Shown here piece after piece: positions 25,201 through 40,476 of a stretch of DNA of 64,000 bases (its first letter is position 1; each line of letters starts with the position of its first letter). Under the pieces are notes generated by a model. It ran no database searches. It worked only from the letters and a program-made list of their open reading frames with translations, and was not told the origin of the DNA. The stretch spans positions 519,501-583,500 of the forward strand of contig NZ_CP029257.1 of the NCBI RefSeq assembly GCF_024399415.1, in the 5' to 3' direction. The stretch is from Streptococcus oralis (GTDB taxonomy: Bacteria; Bacillota; Bacilli; Lactobacillales; Streptococcaceae). A program made the position numbers and the translations under genes.

Positions 25201-25351
25201 TACTCTTCGAAAATAAAATTCAAACCACGTCAACGTCGCCTTGGATTATATATGTAACTGACTTCGTCAGTCTTATCTACAACCTCAAAGCAGTGCTTTG
25301 AGCAACCTGCGGCTAGTTTCCTAGTTTGCTCTTTGATTTTCATTGAGTATA
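25201..25351 (-). repeat. BOX element (A-B-C type)
   Basis: Streptococcal BOX repeat in minus orientation. On the plus strand it begins TACTCTTCGAAAAT, contains the complement of the BOXA1R primer region (CACGTCAACGTCGCCTTG) and the boxB core ACTGACTTCGTCAGT, and ends GATTTTCATTGAGTATA. It starts immediately after the recG stop codon. Confidence 0.9.
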
Positions 25352-25433
25352 AGCTTTCTCTAAGGAAAACTTAAGCTAGCTTTTAGGTTTGGGTCTTATA
25401 CTAGAGTCATCAAAAAGAAACGAGGGCTCTCAC

Positions 25434-25538: not shown

Positions 25539-25596
25539 AAAACTACTTTCAGACGATAGGTTTGAGGAAAGAGAATCTAAAATCACTTTCTATTTA
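25539..25596 (+). promoter_or_regulatory. Sialic-acid regulon element, site A (estA)
   Basis: Upstream half AAAACTACTTTCA at 25539 and downstream half AAAATCACTTTCTATTTA at 25579, exactly 40 bp apart, the latter starting 28 bp before the -35 box of estA. This is the weakest of four copies in its downstream half, but the spacing is conserved. Confidence 0.55.
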
Positions 25597-25606
25597 GAAT
25601 TCTTTC

Positions 25607-25635
25607 TTGCATTGCCTTCCTAGATATGCTAGAGT
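25607..25635 (+). promoter_or_regulatory. Promoter of the esterase gene
   Basis: TTGCAT, 17 bp, TAGAGT with extended TGC. Confidence 0.6.
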
Positions 25636-25669
25636 TATGATAGCGATTACAAAATAAAAGGAGCATACT

Positions 25670-26650
25670 ATGAAAAATCCAGCTTTGTTAGAAGAAATCA
25701 AGACCTATCTAGGAAGGGATGAGGTTCCAGAAGACTTTGATGCTTTCTGGGATGAAGAGGTCAAAAAAGTTTCATCTCTTCCAGCCTACCAGTTGGAGGA
25801 AAGAGATTTCCATATTCCTCAAGTCAAGTGCTATGAGCTCACTTTTGAAGGAACCAATGAAGGCAAGGTTTATGCACGTGTCATCCTTCCAAAGAGTGAA
25901 GGTAAAGTTCCCTTAATCTTCCACTTTCACGGCTATATGGGACGTGGCTGGGACTGGGCCGACATGCTGGCCTTTACCGTGGCTGGTTACGGTGTTGTTT
26001 CTATGGATGTCCGTGGACAGTCGGGCTATTCGCAAGACGGCATGCGTTCTCCACTAGGAAATACCGTTAAGGGACATATCATCCGTGGTGCTGTTGAAGG
26101 TAGGGATCATCTCTTTTATAAGGATGTTTATCTGGATATTTACCAGTTGATCGAAATTGTTGCTAGTCTACCTGAGATTGATGAGAAGCGACTTTCTAGT
26201 TATGGTGCCTCACAAGGAGGGGCTTTAGCCTTAGTTGCAGCTGCTCTCAATCCTCGGATTCAGAAAACAGTGGCCATCTATCCTTTCTTGTCAGACTTTA
26301 GACGAGTGCTTGAGATTGGCAATACCAGTGAAGCCTATGATGAACTCTTCCGTTATTTCAAGTTCCACGATCCCTTCCATGAAACAGAGGATGAAATCAT
26401 GGCGACTCTTGCCTATATCGATGTGAAAAATCTTGCCCATCGTATCAAAGGAGAGGTCAAGATGATTACGGGCTTGGATGACGATGTTTGCTATCCTATT
26501 ACCCAGTTTGCGATTTACAACCGCCTAACTTGCGACAAGGCCTATCGCATCATGCCAGAGTATGCTCACGAAGCCATGAATGTTTTTGTCAATGACCAAG
26601 TCTATAACTGGCTCTGTGGCAGTGAGATTCCTTTTAAGTACGTAAGATAA
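25670..26650 (+). CDS. Acetyl-xylan-esterase family deacetylase (EstA-like, probable sialic acid O-acetylesterase)
   Basis: Alpha/beta-hydrolase of 326 residues in the AXE1 / cephalosporin-C deacetylase family. The nucleophile elbow is YGASQGGALA (Ser near residue 185), the oxyanion region FHFHGYMGRGWDW, and the catalytic His in PEYAHEAMN near the C-terminus. No signal peptide is seen. Pneumococcal EstA, encoded beside nanA, removes O-acetyl groups from sialic acids so that NanA can cleave them; the position and shared regulatory element argue for the same role here. Confidence 0.85.
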   Translation: MKNPALLEEIKTYLGRDEVPEDFDAFWDEEVKKVSSLPAYQLEERDFHIPQVKCYELTFEGTNEGKVYARVILPKSEGKVPLIFHFHGYMGRGWDWADMLAFTVAGYGVVSMDVRGQSGYSQDGMRSPLGNTVKGHIIRGAVEGRDHLFYKDVYLDIYQLIEIVASLPEIDEKRLSSYGASQGGALALVAAALNPRIQKTVAIYPFLSDFRRVLEIGNTSEAYDELFRYFKFHDPFHETEDEIMATLAYIDVKNLAHRIKGEVKMITGLDDDVCYPITQFAIYNRLTCDKAYRIMPEYAHEAMNVFVNDQVYNWLCGSEIPFKYVR

Positions 26651-26655
26651 TGAAT

Positions 26656-26681
26656 GAGAGAGCCCAGGAGCTCTCTTTTTA
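26656..26681 (+). terminator. Terminator after the esterase gene
   Basis: GAGAGC-CCAG-GAGCTCTC type stem-loop with a T run, 6 bp after the stop codon. Confidence 0.8.
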
Positions 26682-26693
26682 TGTCCAAAACCT

Positions 26694-26751
26694 GAAAGTA
26701 CTTTTAGAAAATTTAAAATATTAAAATATTCTTAAAAGTAAAATCTATTCT
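26694..26751 (+). promoter_or_regulatory. Sialic-acid regulon element, site B (nanA)
   Basis: Upstream half GAAAGTACTTTTA at 26694 and downstream half AAAAGTAAAATCTATTCT at 26734, exactly 40 bp apart. The downstream half begins 29 bp before the -35 position of nanA. Confidence 0.65.
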
Positions 26752-26762
26752 GTGGGAACACA

Positions 26763-26791
26763 GATATAAATATAAGACTTTATTGTATAAT
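26763..26791 (+). promoter_or_regulatory. Promoter of nanA (poor -35)
   Basis: GATATA, 17 bp, TATAAT. The -10 is perfect and the -35 has almost no match, as expected of an activator-dependent promoter. A leader of nearly 190 bases follows before the nanA start. Confidence 0.6.
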
Positions 26792-26819
26792 AAAGGAAAA
26801 GTCACTTGTGAAAGGAGGA

Positions 26820-26940
26820 AAAAGGCTGCTGGGTGCTTAAAGAATTCCTCAGCAGAAAATGGGAGAGGATTGGAAGCTCTCATTAAGTTGGATATTTTCT
26901 TGTAAAACTTGTCTCTTGAAGAGACAATAAAAATTTTTAA
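26820..26940 (+). other. Structured nanA leader with short ORF
   Basis: The leader holds CTGCTG/CAGCAG arms, then a small ORF at 26859-26930 (23 codons, MGEDWKLSLSWIFSCK...) whose stop directly follows a perfect hairpin TTGTCTC-TTGAA-GAGACAA trailed by TAAAAATTTTT. This resembles an attenuator with a leader peptide, but the ORF has only a weak ribosome site. Confidence 0.35.
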
Positions 26941-30378
<3,438 letters not shown>

Positions 30379-30410
30379 TAAGCAAAAGCTATTTGAGTAG
30401 GTCTCAGAAG

Positions 30411-30442
30411 AGATAGCAGGTTTTTCATCCTGCTATCTTTCT
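30411..30442 (+). terminator. Terminator after nanA
   Basis: AGATAGCAGG / CCTGCTATCT perfect 10-bp stem followed by TTCTTTATT. Confidence 0.9.
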
Positions 30443-30480
30443 TTATTACATTCAGCTTGATTCGAAATCATAAGAAGTCT

Positions 30481-30538
30481 GAAACTACTTTCAGGATAGT
30501 CTGTTCTATAAAATAGTTTTGAAACTGAAATCTATTCT
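30481..30538 (+). promoter_or_regulatory. Sialic-acid regulon element, site C (nanE)
   Basis: GAAACTACTTTCA at 30481 and GAAACTGAAATCTATTCT at 30521, exactly 40 bp apart; the second half starts 29 bp before the -35 box. This is the best copy and serves as reference. Confidence 0.7.
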
Positions 30539-30549
30539 ATCACAATCTA

Positions 30550-30578
30550 TTGAAAGCGCTTAACAAATGATATATAAT
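30550..30578 (+). promoter_or_regulatory. Promoter of nanE with overlapping cre-like site
   Basis: TTGAAA, 17 bp, TATAAT. The -35 box is embedded in TTGAAAGCGCTTAACA, a cre-like sequence, so CcpA would block polymerase directly. Confidence 0.7.
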
Positions 30579-30611
30579 AAGCCCATAGAAGAAAGAAAGG
30601 GAGGAAAGAGG

Positions 30612-31310
30612 ATGCCACAGATCAGCAAAGAAGCCTTGATTGAACAAATCAAAGATGGAATCATTGTCTCTTGCCAGGCACTTCCTCACGAACCGCTTTA
30701 TACAGAAGCGGGAGGAGTCATTCCCTTGCTAGTCAAAGCGGCTGAGCAAGGTGGAGCAGTCGGTATCCGAGCAAACAGTGTTCGCGATATCAAGGAGATT
30801 AAGGAGGTTACGAAACTCCCGATTATCGGGATTATCAAACGTGACTATCCGCCACAGGAGCCATTCATTACAGCTACTATGAAAGAAGTGGATGAATTGG
30901 CTGAACTCGATATTGAGGTCATTGCTCTGGATTGTACCAAACGTGAACGTTACGACGGTTTGGAAATTCAGGACTTTATCCGACAAGTCAAAGAAAAATA
31001 TCCGCATCAACTCTTAATGGCTGATACTAGCACGTTTGAAGAGGGTATAGCAGCAGTTGAAGCAGGAATTGATTTTGTTGGAACAACCCTATCAGGTTAC
31101 ACCTCTTATAGTCCTAAGGTAGATGGTCCAGACTTTGAACTGATCAAAAAACTGTGTGAAGCAGGTGTGGATGTCATCGCTGAAGGGAAAATTCATACAC
31201 CAGAACAAGCTAAGCAAATCCTTGAATATGGAGTGCGAGGTATCGTTGTTGGTGGAGCTATCACTAGACCAAAAGAGATTACGGAACGCTTTGTTGCCGG
31301 TCTAAAATAA
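30612..31310 (+). CDS. nanE: N-acetylmannosamine-6-phosphate 2-epimerase
   Basis: TIM-barrel enzyme (232 residues) converting ManNAc-6-P to GlcNAc-6-P in sialic acid catabolism. NanE landmarks are [61 protein letters not shown] and [12 protein letters not shown]. The start MPQISKEAL follows GGGAGGAAAGAGG; the longer frame from 30567 starts inside the promoter. Confidence 0.95.
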
Positions 31311-31354
31311 CACAATCTCAAAAAAGAGGAGAGTGGTCGATGCGTCGGACAAAA

Positions 31355-31370
31355 TGAAAACGTATACAAA
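31355..31370 (+). promoter_or_regulatory. cre site before the sialic acid importer genes
   Basis: ATGAAAACGTATACAA matches the cre consensus WTGNAANCGNWWNCAW at all positions. It lies in the 113-bp gap between nanE and the solute-binding protein gene. Confidence 0.65.
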
Positions 31371-31375
31371 TATAA

Positions 31376-32752
<1,377 letters not shown>

Positions 32753-32771
32753 GCACTAAGTCAGATTGATT

Positions 32772-32817
32772 CCCCCCTTTTCCCTGTGCACTATGGTGTA
32801 AGAAAAGGGGGACTTTT
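32772..32817 (+). terminator. Leaky terminator between binding protein and permease genes
   Basis: CCCCCTTTT / AAAAGGGGG perfect 9-bp stem followed by ACTTTTGTTT. Such a hairpin commonly raises binding-protein mRNA over permease mRNA. Confidence 0.8.
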
Positions 32818-32950
32818 GTTTGAAATGGTAGGAACTGTCACGAAATTAAAATGAAGTTCTTACATAAGCGAATCTTAAAAAATTTCATTTTGGTTTTAAA
32901 ACAGTTCAAGAAAATTAAAAACTATTCTATTTGAAAGAGAGGTGCCGACT

Positions 32951-33838
32951 GTGAAAGTCAATAAAATTCGTATGCGGGAAACAGTGATTTCCTACGCTTT
33001 CCTAGCACCAGTGTTATTCTTCTTTGTCATCTTTGTCTTGGCTCCTATGATTATGGGATTCATTACAAGTTTCTTTAACTACTCCATGACTAAATTTGAG
33101 TTTGTGGGCTTGGACAACTACATTCGCATGTTTAAAGACCCTGTCTTTGTGAAGTCTTTGATCAATACCGTTATCCTGGTTATTGGATCTGTTCCGATTG
33201 TGGTTCTCTTCTCGCTCTTTGTAGCATCTCAAACCTATCATCAAAATGCCATTGCCCGTTCTTTTTATCGTTTCGTCTTCTTCCTTCCTGTAGTTACAGG
33301 TAGTGTTGCCGTAACGGTTGTATGGAAATGGATCTATGACCCCCTATCAGGGATTCTAAACTTTGTCCTTAAGTCAAGCCACATCATCAGCCAAAACATT
33401 TCTTGGCTGGGTGACAAAAACTGGGCTTTGCTAGCGATTATGATCATTCTTTTGACAACATCTGTTGGTCAACCGATTATCCTTTATATCGCTGCAATGG
33501 GGAATATTGACAACTCACTTGTTGAAGCAGCGCGTGTAGACGGTGCGACTGAATTCCAAGTCTTCTGGAAGATCAAATGGCCTAGCCTTCTTCCAACAAC
33601 TCTTTACATCGCAATCATCACAACCATCAACTCATTCCAATGTTTCGCCTTGATTCAGTTGTTGACTTCTGGTGGTCCAAACTATTCAACAAGTACCTTG
33701 ATGTACTACCTTTACGAAAAAGCCTTCCAATTGACAGAGTACGGCTATGCAAATACCATCGGTGTCTTCTTGGCAGTGATGATTGCCATTGTCAGCTTTG
33801 CTCAATTCAAGATCCTCGGAAACGACGTAGAATACTAA
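32951..33838 (+). CDS. satB: Sialic acid ABC transporter permease 1
   Basis: MalF-type inner-membrane subunit of about 295 residues with six hydrophobic segments. The EAA loop EAARVDGATEFQVFWKIKWP near residue 195 contacts the ATPase. The GTG at 32951 has GAGAGG 8 bases upstream and is preferred; a GTG at 32942 in frame is an alternative. The 3' neighbour satC follows 15 bp later. Confidence 0.88.
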   Translation: MKVNKIRMRETVISYAFLAPVLFFFVIFVLAPMIMGFITSFFNYSMTKFEFVGLDNYIRMFKDPVFVKSLINTVILVIGSVPIVVLFSLFVASQTYHQNAIARSFYRFVFFLPVVTGSVAVTVVWKWIYDPLSGILNFVLKSSHIISQNISWLGDKNWALLAIMIILLTTSVGQPIILYIAAMGNIDNSLVEAARVDGATEFQVFWKIKWPSLLPTTLYIAIITTINSFQCFALIQLLTSGGPNYSTSTLMYYLYEKAFQLTEYGYANTIGVFLAVMIAIVSFAQFKILGNDVEY

Positions 33839-33853
33839 AGAAAGGAGACAGTT

Positions 33854-34693
33854 ATGCAACCTACACAAAAGAAACCTTTAACAGCTTTCACTGTTATTTC
33901 AACGATTATCTTGCTCTTGTTGACCGTACTGTTCATCTTTCCATTCTACTGGATCTTGACAGGGGCCTTCAAATCACAACCTGATACCATTATGATTCCA
34001 CCACAGTGGTTCCCTAAAATGCCAACCATGGAGAACTTCCAACAACTCATGGTGCAAAACCCTGCTATGCAGTGGATGTGGAACTCTGTATTTATCTCAC
34101 TGGTAACCATGTTCTTAGTCTGTGCAACCTCTTCTCTAGCAGGTTATGTCTTGGCTAAAAAACGTTTCTATGGTCAACGTATCCTCTTTGCAGTCTTTAT
34201 CGCTGCCATGGCACTTCCAAAACAAGTTGTCCTTGTACCATTGGTACGTATCGTTAACTTCATGGGAATTCACGATACTCTTTGGGCAGTTATCTTGCCT
34301 TTGATTGGATGGCCATTTGGGGTATTCCTTATGAAACAATTCAGTGAAAATATCCCTACAGAATTGCTTGAATCAGCTAAAATCGACGGTTGTGGTGAGA
34401 TTCGTACCTTCTGGAGCGTAGCCTTCCCTATCGTGAAACCAGGATTTGCAGCCCTTGCAATCTTTACCTTCATCAATACTTGGAACGACTACTTCATGCA
34501 GTTGGTTATGTTGACTTCACGTCAAAACTTGACTATCTCACTCGGGGTTGCGACCATGCAGGCCGAAATGGCAACCAACTATGGTTTGATCATGGCAGGT
34601 GCAGCTCTTGCAGCCGTGCCAATCGTAACCGTCTTCCTTGTCTTCCAAAAATCCTTCACTCAAGGGATTACTATGGGAGCTGTTAAAGGATAA
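33854..34693 (+). CDS. satC: Sialic acid ABC transporter permease 2
   Basis: MalG-type permease of 279 residues: N-terminal helix (TVISTIILLLLTVLFIFPFY), five further segments, and the EAA loop ESAKIDGCGEIRTFWSVAFP near residue 175. AAAGGAG precedes the ATG. A BOX element starts at the base after the stop codon, and the next gene of the pathway is 445 bp further on. Confidence 0.9.
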   Translation: MQPTQKKPLTAFTVISTIILLLLTVLFIFPFYWILTGAFKSQPDTIMIPPQWFPKMPTMENFQQLMVQNPAMQWMWNSVFISLVTMFLVCATSSLAGYVLAKKRFYGQRILFAVFIAAMALPKQVVLVPLVRIVNFMGIHDTLWAVILPLIGWPFGVFLMKQFSENIPTELLESAKIDGCGEIRTFWSVAFPIVKPGFAALAIFTFINTWNDYFMQLVMLTSRQNLTISLGVATMQAEMATNYGLIMAGAALAAVPIVTVFLVFQKSFTQGITMGAVKG

Positions 34694-34800
34694 GACCTTG
34701 CGAAAATCGAGTTTAAACTACACCAGCATCACCTTGCCATACTTAAGTATTGCCTGCGGTTAGCTTTCTAGTTTGTTCTTCGATTTTCATTGAGTATAAG
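34694..34800 (-). repeat. BOX element, A-C type without boxB
   Basis: Diverged BOX copy in minus orientation. On the plus strand it runs from CTTGCGAAAATC through CACCAGCATCACCTTGCC and the boxC segment GCCTGCGGTTAGCTTTCTAG to GATTTTCATTGAGTATA. The boxB module is missing. Confidence 0.8.
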
Positions 34801-34809
34801 AGAATACAG

Positions 34810-34880
34810 AGTTATAAGTGTCTACAAAATGGAGAGTATGCAGTTACTTCGTGAAGTTTTGTCAGACACTTATAAACTTA
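34810..34880. repeat. Long inverted repeat (possible MITE-like element)
   Basis: Arms AGTTATAAGTGTCT and AGACACTTATAAACT pair with one bulge; just inside them ACAAAA/TTTTGT pair again, and the loop contains the palindrome ACTTCGTGAAGT. There is no ORF. It is unlike BOX and I cannot name it. Confidence 0.5.
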
Positions 34881-34931
34881 AGAATGAACTCTTTTCATGA
34901 TACTAGTTAGAGTAGGTTCGTTTTAGGGTAA

Positions 34932-35083
34932 CTATTTCCCGCTTTAGTGGTATCTAAGATAAGCATCTTACGCTTATCTTAGACGGAATTTTTGAGACTG
35001 ACGATGAAGGAGTGAAAGGCTCAAAAATTAGGAATGAAATTCCGAAGGAATTTGCTTCCGTCCGCACTATTACAGGGAAATAG
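34932..35083 (+). other. Multibranched structured element upstream of yhcH
   Basis: Nested perfect complementarities: CTATTTCCC (34932) with GGGAAATAG (35075); TAGTG (34945) with CACTA (35065); hairpin TCTAAGATAAGC / GCTTATCTTAGA (34953-34983); GACGGAA (34982) with TTCCGTC (35056), which encloses AATTTTTGAG / CTCAAAAATT (34987-35029) and AAATTCC-GAA-GGAATTT (35037-35053). Together they make a closed multi-helix fold of about 150 bases in an untranslated gap. It is either a structured RNA or a folded mobile repeat. Confidence 0.5.
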
Positions 35084-35138
35084 AGGAAGGATAATTCGAA
35101 ACTGAAAACTAGTAACTATCAGAAACGAAGGAAACAGT

Positions 35139-35591
35139 ATGATTTTTGACGATTTGAAAAACATCACCTTTTACAAGGGGATCCATCCCAATCTAGACAA
35201 GGCTATCGACTATCTCTATCAGCACCGTAAGGCTTCTTTCGAACTCGGTAAGTATGAGATTGACGGGGACAAGGTCTTTCTAGTTGTTCAGGAAAATGTC
35301 CTCAATCAAGCTGAAAATGATCAGTTTGAGCACCATAAACACTATGCAGATTTGCATTTACTGGTAGAAGGACATGAATATTCAAGCTACGGTTCACGTA
35401 TCAAAGACGAGGCAGTAGCATTCGATGAAGCGAGCGACATTGGTTTTGTCCATTGTCATGAACGCTACCCACTCTTGTTGGGTTATCACAATTTTGCGAT
35501 TTTCTTCCCAGGAGAACCGCATCAGCCAAATGGCTACGCAGGGATGGAAGAGAAGGTTCGTAAATATCTCTTTAAAATTTTGATTGATTAA
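35139..35591 (+). CDS. YhcH/YjgK/YiaL family protein
   Basis: Cupin-like protein of 150 residues (DUF386 family), a regular companion of sialic acid catabolism genes. Family landmarks are QENVLNQAENDQFEHHKHYADLHLLVEG, with the His cluster expected to bind metal, and FFPGEPHQPNGY. It has been proposed to help sugar anomer or epimer conversion; that is family knowledge, not visible here. It shares a unit with the DUF624 gene 20 bp downstream. Confidence 0.88.
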   Translation: MIFDDLKNITFYKGIHPNLDKAIDYLYQHRKASFELGKYEIDGDKVFLVVQENVLNQAENDQFEHHKHYADLHLLVEGHEYSSYGSRIKDEAVAFDEASDIGFVHCHERYPLLLGYHNFAIFFPGEPHQPNGYAGMEEKVRKYLFKILID

Positions 35592-35611
35592 AAGAATCAG
35601 GAGGAGCAAAC

Positions 35612-36256
35612 ATGGCACAAAAAGGAGTAAGCCTTATCAAGGCAGCATTTGATACAGACAACTTTCTCATGCGTTTTAGTGAAAAGGTTTTGGATATCGT
35701 CACAGTCAATCTTCTTTTTGTCGTCTCTTGTTTGCCCATCGTGACGATTGGAGTGGCGAAAATCAGCCTCTATGAAACCATGTTTGAGATTAAGAGAAGC
35801 AGACGGGTACCAGTCTTTCAAACTTTTCTAAGAGCCTTCAAGCAAAATCTGAAACTGGGTTTCCAGTTAGGTTTGCTAGAGTTGGGTATTGTGTCATTAA
35901 GCCTTTTAGATCTCTATCTCTTCTGGGGCCAGACAGCTTTGCCTTTCCAGATTGTGAAAGCAATTTGTTTGGGGATTCTCATCTTCCTCACTCTCGTGAT
36001 GCTAGCTAGTTATCCCATCGCTGCGCGCTATGATTTGTCATGGAAAGAAGTGCTGCAAAAAGGGCTTATCTTGGCAAGTTTTAACTTTCCATGGTTCTTC
36101 CTCATGTTAGCCATTCTCTTTCTCATTGTGATGGTTCTTTATCTATCCGCCTTCACTCTCCTTTTGGGTGGATCGGCCTTTATCCTCTTTGGTTTTGGTT
36201 TGCTAGTCTTTCTCCAAGCAGGTTTGATGGAGAAAATCTTCGCAAAATACCAGTAG
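35612..36256 (+). CDS. DUF624 (YesL-like) membrane protein
   Basis: Membrane protein of 214 residues with about five hydrophobic segments. The N-terminal FSEKVLDIVTVNLLFVVSCLPIVTIGVAKISLYETM is characteristic of the DUF624/YesL family, which often accompanies carbohydrate ABC importers. The function is unknown. It lies between yhcH and nanL; the element and promoter for the next unit follow it. Confidence 0.85.
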   Translation: MAQKGVSLIKAAFDTDNFLMRFSEKVLDIVTVNLLFVVSCLPIVTIGVAKISLYETMFEIKRSRRVPVFQTFLRAFKQNLKLGFQLGLLELGIVSLSLLDLYLFWGQTALPFQIVKAICLGILIFLTLVMLASYPIAARYDLSWKEVLQKGLILASFNFPWFFLMLAILFLIVMVLYLSAFTLLLGGSAFILFGFGLLVFLQAGLMEKIFAKYQ

Positions 36257-36270
36257 GATGGCTTGTTTCT

Positions 36271-36328
36271 GAAACTACTTTCAATCGTTACAGTTTCTAA
36301 AATACAAGTAGAAACTAAAATCTAAGTG
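36271..36328 (+). promoter_or_regulatory. Sialic-acid regulon element, site D (nanL-nanK)
   Basis: GAAACTACTTTCA at 36271 is identical to the half in site C. GAAACTAAAATCTA at 36311 is again exactly 40 bp downstream and 29 bp before the -35 box. Confidence 0.7.
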
Positions 36329-36339
36329 TATACAAGATA

Positions 36340-36368
36340 TTGAAAGAGATTTTCACAAGGTGTATACT
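36340..36368 (+). promoter_or_regulatory. Promoter of nanL-nanK
   Basis: TTGAAA, 17 bp, TATACT. The region also contains TGAAA-N5-TTTCA overlapping the -35 box. Confidence 0.7.
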
Positions 36369-36426: not shown

Positions 36427-37344
36427 ATGTCAGATTTGAAAAAATACGAAGGTGTCATTCCAGCCTTCTACGCATGTTATGATGATCAAGGAGAAGTCAG
36501 TCCAGAGCGTACCCGTGCCTTGGTTCAATACTTCATTGATAAGGGTGTTCAAGGTCTCTATGTCAATGGTTCTTCTGGTGAATGTATCTACCAAAGTGTG
36601 GCAGACCGCAAATTGATTTTGGAAGAAGTCATGGCAGTTGCTAAGGGCAAATTGACCATCATTGCTCACGTAGCTTGCAACAATACCAAAGATAGTATGG
36701 AACTTGCTCGCCACGCGGAAAGCTTGGGTGTAGATGCCATTGCAACGATTCCACCGATTTACTTCCGTTTGCCTGAGTACTCAGTTGCTAAATACTGGAA
36801 TGACATTAGTGCTGCAGCACCAAATACAGACTATGTTATCTACAACATTCCTCAATTAGCAGGTGTTGCTTTGACTCCAAGCCTTTACACTGAAATGTTG
36901 AAGAATCCTCGTGTTATCGGTGTTAAGAACTCTTCTATGCCAGTTCAAGATATCCAAACCTTTGTCAGCCTTGGTGGAGAAGACCACATCGTATTCAATG
37001 GCCCAGATGAACAATTCCTAGGTGGTCGCCTCATGGGTGCCAAAGCTGGTATTGGTGGTACTTATGGTGCGATGCCAGAACTCTTCTTGAAACTCAATCA
37101 GTTAATTGCTGAGAAAGACTTGGAAACAGCGCGTGAATTGCAGTATGCTATCAATGCGATCATTGGCAAACTCACTTCTGCACATGGAAATATGTACGGT
37201 GTGATTAAGGAAGTCTTGAAGATCAATGAAGGCTTGAACATTGGTTCAGTTCGTTCGCCATTGACGCCAGTAACCGAAGAAGATCGCCCAGTTGTAGAAG
37301 CAGCAGCACAATTGATTCGTGAAACCAAGGAGCGCTTCCTCTAA
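36427..37344 (+). CDS. nanL: N-acetylneuraminate lyase
   Basis: Class I aldolase of the DHDPS/NAL family, 305 residues, splitting Neu5Ac into ManNAc and pyruvate. The Schiff-base Lys is in RVIGVKNSS (about residue 167), the proton-relay Tyr in YVIYNIPQLAG, and the carboxylate-binding motif GSSGE at about 48 in YVNGSSGECIY. It is followed 17 bp later by the ROK kinase gene, giving a two-gene unit for the first two intracellular steps. Confidence 0.93.
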   Translation: MSDLKKYEGVIPAFYACYDDQGEVSPERTRALVQYFIDKGVQGLYVNGSSGECIYQSVADRKLILEEVMAVAKGKLTIIAHVACNNTKDSMELARHAESLGVDAIATIPPIYFRLPEYSVAKYWNDISAAAPNTDYVIYNIPQLAGVALTPSLYTEMLKNPRVIGVKNSSMPVQDIQTFVSLGGEDHIVFNGPDEQFLGGRLMGAKAGIGGTYGAMPELFLKLNQLIAEKDLETARELQYAINAIIGKLTSAHGNMYGVIKEVLKINEGLNIGSVRSPLTPVTEEDRPVVEAAAQLIRETKERFL

Positions 37345-39381: not shown

Positions 39382-39468
39382 ACGATTAGAATTTCCCATA
39401 CCCAAAATACCGCAATGTTGGGTGCCTATTATCATTTTTTACTCAATGAAAACCAAAGAGCAAAGTAG
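39382..39468 (+). pseudogene. Remnant 3' end of a second nanK allele
   Basis: The frame reads HTQNTAMLGAYYHF and then runs into the BOX element to a TAG at 39466. It aligns with the true nanK end (YHQNTAGMLGAYYHF, from 38168) with several differences. There is no 5' part, so it is a leftover tail and not a gene. Confidence 0.8.
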
Positions 39469-39591
39469 GGAGCGAGCCAGAGGTTGCTCACAGCACAGCT
39501 TTGAGGTTGTAGATAAGACTGACGAAGTCAGTTACCTATACGTACGGCAAGGTGAAGCTGACGTGGTTTGAAGAGATTTTTGAAGAGTATT
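39440..39591 (+). repeat. BOX element (A-B-C type)
   Basis: Plus orientation, from ACTCAATGAAAACCAAAGAG through boxB GACTGACGAAGTCAGT and the BOXA1R-like stretch TACGGCAAGGTGAAGCTGACG to GATTTTTGAAGAGTAT. It splits a nanK-tail copy from the conserved sequence that follows it in the intact nanK locus. Confidence 0.9.
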
Positions 39592-39596
39592 AAAAC

Positions 39597-39629
39597 AAAA
39601 CAATCCTAGTTTGGTTCAACCAAACTAGG
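39597..39629 (-). terminator. Terminator of the RpiR gene
   Basis: CCTAGTTTGG / CCAAACTAGG perfect 10-bp stem, T-rich on the minus strand. It overlaps the stop codon of the regulator gene. Confidence 0.8.
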
Positions 39630-40476
39630 ATTTTCTAACACGTTTTTGTCTACGATAGCCGTTGAGTTTTTTATTTTCCCAATAGCTGTTAAAGATTTTT
39701 TCCTTGCTCTCGCGATTGATTTCTAAAAAGTAGGCATAAATCAAATCTATTAAAATGAGCATAGGGAGTTGAGCGGAAATACGCTGGATGTAAGAAGATT
39801 GACTATGGCTTGTCACAAGGACTGTTTCAGTATAAGCCTGACTGTTTTTGTTTGGAGCGCTGGTAAATAAAATGGTCTTGGCCCCCATTTCCTTGGCGTC
39901 CAGCAAACTATCGAGGACGGATTGGGTAGTGCCTGAGAGAGAAAAGCCAAGTACCAGACAATTTTCATCCATGATACTAGTCGTCCAAGCAAAGCCATCC
40001 TGATCGGTCAAAGCTTCACAGACAACACCTAGACGCATAAAGCGCAGTTTCATCTCGCGGGCAATCAGACCAGAACTTCCCGTCCCAAAAAAGTAAACTC
40101 GTTCTGCGTCATCGATTAATTGGGCGACGCGTTCCAGTTGTTCTTCGTCAATCAAATCCTGAGTTTGTTCTCGCATGATACTGTAGCTTCGCAAAACACG
40201 TTTGGTCAAAGGACTGTGTTTGTGCGAATGAGTGTCCGGTTTACTAGCCTGATGCTGGTATTGAAAGACGAACTCTCGGTAGCCTGTAAAACCACACTTT
40301 TTGGCAAAGCGGGTCAAGGCTGCTTGGGAGATATGTAATTTCTGGGTAACTTGCTGAGAAGAGAGATCATCTTGGATCGTTTCAGCTTGCAAAAAATAGC
40401 GAGCGATTTCTTGCTCGAGCTCGGTTAATTCTTCAAAATGGAGGTCGATTATGGTTGCGATATCTGGCTTGTTCAT
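39625..40476 (-). CDS. nanR: RpiR-family regulator, probable sialic acid regulator NanR
   Basis: Regulator of 283 residues: N-terminal RpiR helix-turn-helix (about 1-77, QVTQKLHISQAALTRFAKKCGF) and a C-terminal SIS sugar-phosphate-binding domain (ERVYFFGTGSSGLIAREM, LGFSLSGTTQSVLDSLLDAKEMGAKTILFT). It faces the sialic-acid genes and closes the locus. In pneumococcus the equivalent RpiR protein activates the nan genes; four shared upstream elements in this window are its probable targets. The ligand is probably a pathway phosphate sugar such as ManNAc-6-P. Confidence 0.87.
   Translation of the reverse strand: MNKPDIATIIDLHFEELTELEQEIARYFLQAETIQDDLSSQQVTQKLHISQAALTRFAKKCGFTGYREFVFQYQHQASKPDTHSHKHSPLTKRVLRSYSIMREQTQDLIDEEQLERVAQLIDDAERVYFFGTGSSGLIAREMKLRFMRLGVVCEALTDQDGFAWTTSIMDENCLVLGFSLSGTTQSVLDSLLDAKEMGAKTILFTSAPNKNSQAYTETVLVTSHSQSSYIQRISAQLPMLILIDLIYAYFLEINRESKEKIFNSYWENKKLNGYRRQKRVRKS

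Follow-up and report, generated by a model that had tools for sequence, protein, structure and literature searches.

How does a sugar phosphate switch genes on when it leaves the DNA affinity of their activator unchanged? The question is left open in a December 2025 preprint on the pneumococcal regulator SpNanR (PMC12713135), and the sialic acid (nan) cluster of Streptococcus oralis raises it again. We analysed this cluster in a window of 64,000 nucleotides (G000:C1:519501-583500; G numbers denote genomes and L numbers loci taken from them) from a 2.0-Mb single-contig Streptococcus genome. SpNanR is reported to act as an activator (PMC12713135; PMC3509027) and to bind TCTGAAAGTACTTTTAGA and two similar sites with affinities of ~480-750 nM; N-acetylmannosamine-6-phosphate (ManNAc-6-P) leaves the affinity for the nanE site unaffected and shifts SpNanR dimers to tetramers (PMC12713135). 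The preprint also describes the strong palindrome and, for nan operon-I and siaA, suggests that the ligand-stabilised tetramer extends to a degenerate half palindrome lying ~23 bp downstream (PMC12713135). Here we describe, 40 bp downstream of a strong palindrome at four promoters of the window, a second element that looks like a full-length, dimer-sized NanR site.

A sequence-only reading of this DNA had noticed a two-part element with rigid 40-bp spacing before an esterase-like gene (estA), a cell-wall sialidase gene, nanE and an N-acetylneuraminate lyase gene. The two-part element is real, with the strong sites and the 40-bp register present at all four promoters. The positions, all in window coordinates, are as follows; the sialidase, nanE and lyase sites come from sequence reading and scanning, the proximal sialidase site from the scan.

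25539..25550, forward strand: estA promoter, distal predicted NanR site AAAACTACTTTC, 1 mismatch within the 14-mer TGAAASTASTTTYA
25579..25590, forward strand: estA promoter, proximal predicted site AAAATCACTTTC, 3 mismatches to GAAASTASTTTC, right arm kept, starting 40 bp from the distal site
25607..25635, forward strand: estA −35 TTGCAT (25607-25612) and −10 TAGAGT (25630-25635), assigned by eye; the automatic call picked another pair
26694..26705, forward strand: sialidase promoter, distal predicted NanR site GAAAGTACTTTT
26734..26745, forward strand: sialidase promoter, proximal predicted NanR site AAAAGTAAAATC
26763..26791, forward strand: sialidase −35 GATATA (26763-26768) and −10 TATAAT (26786-26791)
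30481..30492, forward strand: nanE promoter, distal predicted NanR site GAAACTACTTTC
30521..30532, forward strand: nanE promoter, proximal predicted NanR site GAAACTGAAATC
30550..30578, forward strand: nanE −35 TTGAAA (30550-30555) and −10 TATAAT (30573-30578)
36271..36282, forward strand: lyase promoter, distal predicted NanR site GAAACTACTTTC, identical to that of nanE
36311..36322, forward strand: lyase promoter, proximal predicted NanR site GAAACTAAAATC
36340..36368, forward strand: lyase −35 TTGAAA (36340-36345) and −10 TATACT (36363-36368), from sequence reading

At nanE, lyase and sialidase the second element reads (G/A)AAA(C/G)TRAAATC and starts 40 bp downstream of the start of the strong site. 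From its start to the −35 are 29 bp at these three promoters and 28 bp at estA, where −35 and −10 were assigned by eye, and the −35/−10 gap is 17 bp at all four, as had been claimed. The sialidase −35 is indeed very poor, with four of its six bases mismatched. The nanE −35 overlaps a sequence resembling a catabolite-responsive element (cre), an overlap likewise described for the pneumococcus (PMC12713135). What did not stand is the downstream sequence given for estA: position 25579 reads AAAATCACTTTCTATTT instead of GAAACTGAAATCTATTC, with little in common beyond the tail. It fits the palindrome at 9 of 12 positions, mostly via a right arm ACTTTC, and a left-arm-like GAATCTAAAATC is also found at +34.

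At nanE, lyase and sialidase 69 bp separate the start of the 12-mer core from the −35, which puts the end of the 18-mer ~54 bp before it; these three promoters thus match SpNanR promoters, in which an 18-bp near-palindrome lies about 55 bp ahead of the −35. With an assumed start point 7 nt after the −10, the proximal site is centred at about −58 and the distal one at about −98, which under that assumption is a class-I-like placement with a site centre near −60. With class I and tandem-site activators such as CRP, the site of one dimer has its centre near −60, and a second dimer bound further upstream assists it, with helical phasing. Unlike them, NanR reportedly uses ligand-driven joining of dimers into tetramers, not ligand-driven DNA affinity.

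The divergent RpiR gene, earlier picked as the obvious candidate, looks a sound choice: on its sequence it is the orthologue of pneumococcal NanR, aligning over all 283 residues to the solved protein (E 3e-167 to PDB 8v4v over residues 1-283). The window protein has all the published DNA-contact residues (T18, S50, T55, R56, K59 and R67) and all the published ManNAc-6-P contacts (S135, R148, D160, S179, S181, T184 and Y229). Five of the DNA contacts (T18, S50, T55, R56 and R67) are kept in 39/39 loci with a NanR match, out of 42 loci tried; in the published structure Arg56 of each SpNanR monomer sits at the palindrome ends (PMC12713135). The nan genes of the window are linked to nanR and have the palindrome upstream of their promoters. 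Given the palindrome binding, activation and ligand-stabilised tetramers published for SpNanR (PMC12713135, PMC3509027), the earlier idea of an activator bound as two dimers or a tetramer is the best-supported reading.

Some regulators of the genus depart from this type. A second RpiR subgroup, 39-43% identical (L217, L219, L220, L240, L245 and L247), retains the main DNA contacts, but its residue 160 is H and its residue 229 is L or Q; it may read the same palindrome with a different ligand. L241 (G019) and L087, of an S. cristatus-like genome, have paired elements at nanE and estA and no NanR match at 1e-60. At G157:C1:1080798-1081415 the nanR match spans residues 77-283 with one internal stop, so this gene looks interrupted; the paired elements are still present.

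Does the pairing exceed chance? Allowing up to 3 mismatches, a degenerate 17-base pattern gave 30 matches in the window against 21.6 expected, a number reached by 8 of 100 shuffles, and we rejected the motif as stand-alone evidence. The strict pair with a free gap matched twice in the 2.0-Mb genome, at nanE and lyase; since the reversed-pattern control also matched twice, this count alone is weak. Ten places in the genome have at most one mismatch to the strong palindrome; at three of these, all belonging to the nan cluster, a second element with no more than one mismatch lies at 40 bp. A perfect palindrome at G000:C1:273764 was rejected as a NanR site; it has no partner (the best has 4-5 mismatches over 9 specified bases). 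The translations beside it look by eye like what we take to be a cadmium-type transporter and an ArsR-like regulator.

The motif search in relatives suggested by the earlier reading was run on 284 Streptococcus genomes with the gap left open over 31 values, and 149 of them have a pair match. Because the reversed-pattern control gave 0-3 matches per genome, we used the distribution of spacings as evidence instead of the match counts. Out of 259 pair matches, 170 lie at 40 bp and 59 at 41 bp (229/259), and the remaining 30 are scattered over 14 spacings, 10 of them being one 53-bp case repeated in ten genomes. The pairing is thus strongly borne out by the spacing and weakly by the counts. Rigid 40-bp spacing holds throughout the window; relatives mostly have 40 or 41 bp, with 39 in another lineage and 32 and 34 in single clusters.

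The element also follows the NanR regulator across the genus. The exact element at 40/41 is found in 139/150 genomes with a close NanR (E below 1e-99) and in 4/134 others, counts that are uncorrected for kinship. Ten of the 11 misses were checked (L195-L204, leaving out G205), and all have a nanE second element at 40 or 41 with 0-2 mismatches per 10 specified bases. In G184, G188 and G283, which have the element and no close NanR, the matches read away from a nan gene and look like chance.

Promoters that are merely recent copies of one cassette would also look alike, and ours all lie in one cluster with a shared architecture. Yet the spacers of 245 promoter instances form 46 clusters at 75% identity with both sites and their distance kept, which makes this explanation hardly credible. 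Across the 46 clusters the mean palindrome match peaks at offset 40 with 7.2/12, against 3.65 (sd 0.61) at other offsets; the next-highest value, 5.63 at 47, is unexplained, and a lesser peak at 71 falls on cre/−35 sequence. Of 43 usable clusters, an open scan over offsets 18-65 placed the best palindrome at 40/41 in 39, including 7 ties; the misses are the window nanE and L198 (best at 28), L062 and L092. Kilobase loops, in which tetramers bridge the strong palindromes of different promoters and the 40-bp pair is secondary, are raised in the preprint (PMC12713135), and a locus with as many as five paired or strong sites (L209/L210) would suit them. Such loops do not predict a partner at 40-41 bp at each promoter, however, and in some genomes (e.g. 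G140-G149) the nanE pair is the only exact match found; we consider them very improbable.

The second elements had been described as halves. This description seems not to fit: they look like dimer-sized sites, with a conserved far C and with complete palindromes in the same slot of relatives. In the left-arm clusters of the proximal 12-mer, C12 and T6 are each present in 35/35 (background C 11%), and the first base is G in 30/35 and A in 5/35. For these counts 3/46 clusters were dropped (false primaries, 2 mismatches, overlapping cre) and offsets were restricted to 40/41 and chosen by arm match, with two hand-set exceptions (L092 at 34, L062 at 32); the left-arm letters are thus partly selected for, C12 only through tie-breaks. 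The C at the right end is not strictly required in a NanR palindrome, since the published nanE site has T there.

The columns 13-15 (TAW) past the palindrome are also conserved. They would suit an UP element or the site of another protein, with NanR acting from the distal palindrome only, as would the A/T-rich composition and the position adjoining the expected region of the RNA polymerase alpha C-terminal domain. The conserved letters nevertheless coincide with the NanR palindrome, including both outer G-C pairs, and in relatives the element becomes a complete NanR palindrome, so we judge this improbable.

At estA the register is kept by opposite arms in different lineages. Among 30 distinct mitis-type estA promoters, the right arm ASTTTC is at 40/41 exactly in 24 and with one mismatch in 4, the exceptions being L027 and L033, which have no right arm there. 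Among seven S. cristatus-like estA promoters it is the left arm that lies at 40 in 6 (L091 with one mismatch) and at 34 in L092. This is not expected of a one-armed site.

When nanE upstream regions were aligned on the −35 rather than on the palindrome (47 clusters, 4 loci unusable), 45 palindromes with at most 2 mismatches were found, 13 at 28-29 bp and 27 at 68-70 bp from the −35. Two others are at 99 and one each at 84, 22 and 19, the last two (L223, L231) probably from a wrong −35 call. A complete palindrome (GAAANTANTTTC) fills the proximal slot alone in L217 and L220, both slots in L227, the proximal slot with a weaker distal site in L229, L238 and L242, and the proximal slot before a nanR-nanE pair in L215. 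L220 is weaker evidence than L217, its regulator belonging to the RpiR subgroup with different ligand residues. Confined to the proximal and distal slots and skipping 11/47 clusters, a comparison of site quality gave a weak trade-off between the two (Spearman −0.35, p 0.035, 36 clusters, uncorrected). As a separate observation, L235, L239 and L243 have three palindrome-like sites in a row before nanE, their distances to the −35 being 28-29, 68 and 99 bp; some of these sites carry 2-3 mismatches.

The model of the preprint, in which the tetramer contacts a degenerate half palindrome, GAAACT, through a single DNA-binding domain and there is no second dimer site, was proposed with structures and solution data (PMC12713135), and in oral streptococci the left arm is the better kept at nanE, lyase and sialidase. 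It is at odds with the invariant far C, with the opposite arm kept in the same register by most mitis-type estA promoters and with the complete palindromes in the proximal slot of relatives. We regard it as unlikely in general, although a one-domain contact is possible in oral streptococci, where the proximal site is weakest.

The gap lengths bear on whether the two sites share a face of the helix. In 36 nanE clusters the best sites in preset slots are 39, 40 or 41 bp apart, except in L217 and L225, which have no distal site; the result is only descriptive, because the slots were preset and in L220/L245 a good distal or proximal site is missing as well. Complete palindromes are paired in 7/284 genomes, with gaps of 39, 39, 39, 40, 50, 51 and 33 bp, and the control gave none; the 40-bp pair is that of G075, outside the loci fetched. 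The 50- and 51-bp pairs, from two lineages, stand before nanR-nanE genes with the proximal site again 28 bp before the −35. Same-face binding predicts a gap about one turn longer than 39-41 bp while the proximal slot stays in place, and these pairs seem to fit this, though the events are few. Gaps of 30-31 bp (third sites with 2-3 mismatches in L235, L239 and L243) and of 48 bp (L240 and L245, whose regulator is more distant) are too rare to serve as evidence. Natural deletions also occur: the gap of L062 is about one turn shorter and that of L092 is out of phase, and the same gaps are found in G106 and G025.

Several observations weigh against two dimer sites at each promoter. The preprint reports no adjacent NanR site by inspection and holds that the degenerate half palindrome is unlikely to bind alone; it also reports that an A10C change in the strong site abolished SpNanR binding (PMC12713135). 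The base matching that position is G in the proximal site of the window nanE, and position 9 is A in 34/35 left-arm clusters, so that the arm bearing it is not simply relaxed and has its own consensus. Nine of 33 distant loci have no pair at the thresholds used (L219, L221, L225, L226, L230, L231, L232, L244 and L246; L221 and L232 do show sites in the two-slot comparison), and the scan of distant loci also printed pairs at other distances. The regulator of L220 is perhaps no true NanR, and in G019 the element occurs with no NanR match at 1e-60. Two of the three 39-bp complete-palindrome pairs are identical in sequence, 40 bp amounts to 3.8 turns at 10.5 bp/turn, and gaps of 32 (L062, lyase) and 34 (L092, estA) occur naturally.

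Taken as a whole, the best explanation in our view, and a probable one, is that each promoter carries two NanR dimer sites with the tetramer as the switch. The near-consensus distal site would hold a NanR dimer with or without inducer, as the published affinity suggests, while the proximal site, full-length but a poor copy (GAAAnTrnAWTC), would hold a lone dimer only weakly. ManNAc-6-P, formed from sialic acid, would leave DNA affinity as it is and tie two dimers into a tetramer. With one dimer anchored at the distal site, the tetramer would bring the other to the proximal site, some four turns along and on roughly the same face, where it would adjoin the position of the RNA polymerase alpha C-terminal domain and recruit polymerase. 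In glucose, CcpA at the cre overlapping the −35 would veto activation. The two sites, their geometry and conservation and the complete proximal palindromes of relatives come from the comparison; NanR binding, tetramerisation, activation and CcpA are taken from papers; we infer that the proximal site is occupied in oral streptococci, in what order the events run and that polymerase is contacted.

Compared with the pneumococcal promoters (PMC12713135), the regulator is orthologous and the palindrome, its upstream position, the place of the second element and the cre over the −35 are alike. The difference is that the preprint describes no more than half a palindrome, at two promoters, where our comparison predicts a second site of full length at nanE, sialidase, lyase and, in mirror form, estA; many relatives have such a second site too. 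According to the preprint the lyase (nanA) promoter lacks the half palindrome (PMC12713135). We found GAAACTAAAATC at 41 bp in the lyase promoter of L030 (labelled S. pneumoniae SMRU824) and similar matches in pneumococcus-type genomes; the downstream element is thus not confined to operon-I and siaA, and its far end is conserved too.

The site downstream of siaA is called cryptic in the preprint (PMC12713135). In L209 (16573-16700) a paired element with its partner at 40 bp lies between siaA and the second transporter, oriented towards that operon and ~780 bp upstream of a 150-codon reading frame taken as its first gene, with repeat-like DNA between. We infer that it is the site 4 of the preprint; instead of being cryptic, the pair may act as the operon-II promoter. 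The same pair is seen in L030 (4417), L035 (4232), L040 (4233), L085 (4066) and L207 (7355). SPG1598 of the second transporter is reported to be 52-fold up in an N-acetylmannosamine (ManNAc) time-course and 3.35-fold up versus glucose, which a working operon-II promoter would fit; its value on sialic acid is 1.99, given with no p value, and without the regulator there is no growth on ManNAc (Gualdi and colleagues, PMC3509027). Operon-II is not sialic-acid-induced according to the preprint, citing other work (PMC12713135).

The NanR of group B Streptococcus is also an RpiR protein, 49.6% identical to the pneumococcal one, with a putative site TCTGAAACTACTTTCACG (PMC13343189). L236 carries the core of this site, TGAAACTACTTTCACG, and 40 bp downstream of it a second element, AAAACTAAAATC, whereas the account of that system gives one site (PMC13343189). 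E. coli MurR and Vibrio vulnificus NanR are RpiR proteins that likewise bind two neighbouring sites as tetramers or dimers, but they are repressors whose ligand lowers DNA affinity, whereas streptococcal NanR activates; MurR sites overlap the promoter and streptococcal NanR sites lie upstream (both via PMC12713135). A lactic-acid regulon paper, in its entry for NanR, lists the regulator without sites (PMC3616900), and PMC12931268, in the portion relevant here, concerns expression and mutants.

The cluster itself comprises the esterase-like gene, the cell-wall sialidase, nanE, an ATP-binding cassette (ABC) transporter, two small genes, the lyase and a ROK kinase, with the RpiR regulator divergent:

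25670..26650, forward strand: estA-like hydrolase gene, named by the sequence-only reading; weak alpha/beta-hydrolase matches, every one under its cut-off
26965..30378, forward strand: cell-wall anchored sialidase gene (nanA of the earlier reading, pneumococcal siaA), with YSIRK, SIALI-17 repeats and LPXTG
30606..31310, forward strand: nanE, N-acetylmannosamine-6-phosphate epimerase, heading the transport operon; start codon picked by us
36427..37344, forward strand: N-acetylneuraminate lyase gene (nanL of the earlier reading); best NCBIfam match, under its strict cut-off
39625..40476, reverse strand: nanR, RpiR-family regulator, predicted orthologue of pneumococcal NanR; full-length match to PDB 8v4v, 8tx9 and 8txl

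The window NanE shares 98-100% identity with its counterpart on eight S. oralis-labelled contigs and 95% with the one on a ninth. Copies of dispersed intergenic repeats lie in or beside the cluster at 25249-25353, 34753-34800 and 39437-39540 (104 nt, 89% identity between inverted arms; 48 nt, 90% direct); they resemble small pneumococcal-type repeats. A search of a phage collection with the nanE promoter gave no match.

The regulator, the palindrome, the tetramer and a downstream partner are already known, and the sequence-only reading had independently found a feature proposed in print for two pneumococcal promoters. What the comparison appears to add is the full-length second site, its presence at lyase and estA, its series of forms across lineages and the versions longer by one turn; the open-licence PubMed Central literature searched gave no account of a full second NanR site. 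The map of promoters that NanR should control is corrected accordingly. A second full site at a fixed distance, together with natural single-site, double-site and one-turn-longer versions, makes the switch question directly testable. We tentatively suggest, as a possibility somewhat short of even, that in oral streptococci selection keeps the proximal operator weak, because position 9 is A in nearly all left-arm clusters, and that its occupancy reports the oligomeric state of NanR rather than its DNA affinity. If so, the pair would slide across the genus between proximal-strong, both-strong and distal-strong forms, and lineages with a strong proximal site would be predicted to have a higher uninduced level. 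A ligand that merely ties dimers together would then become an on-switch through a strong-plus-weak pair of sites at four turns.

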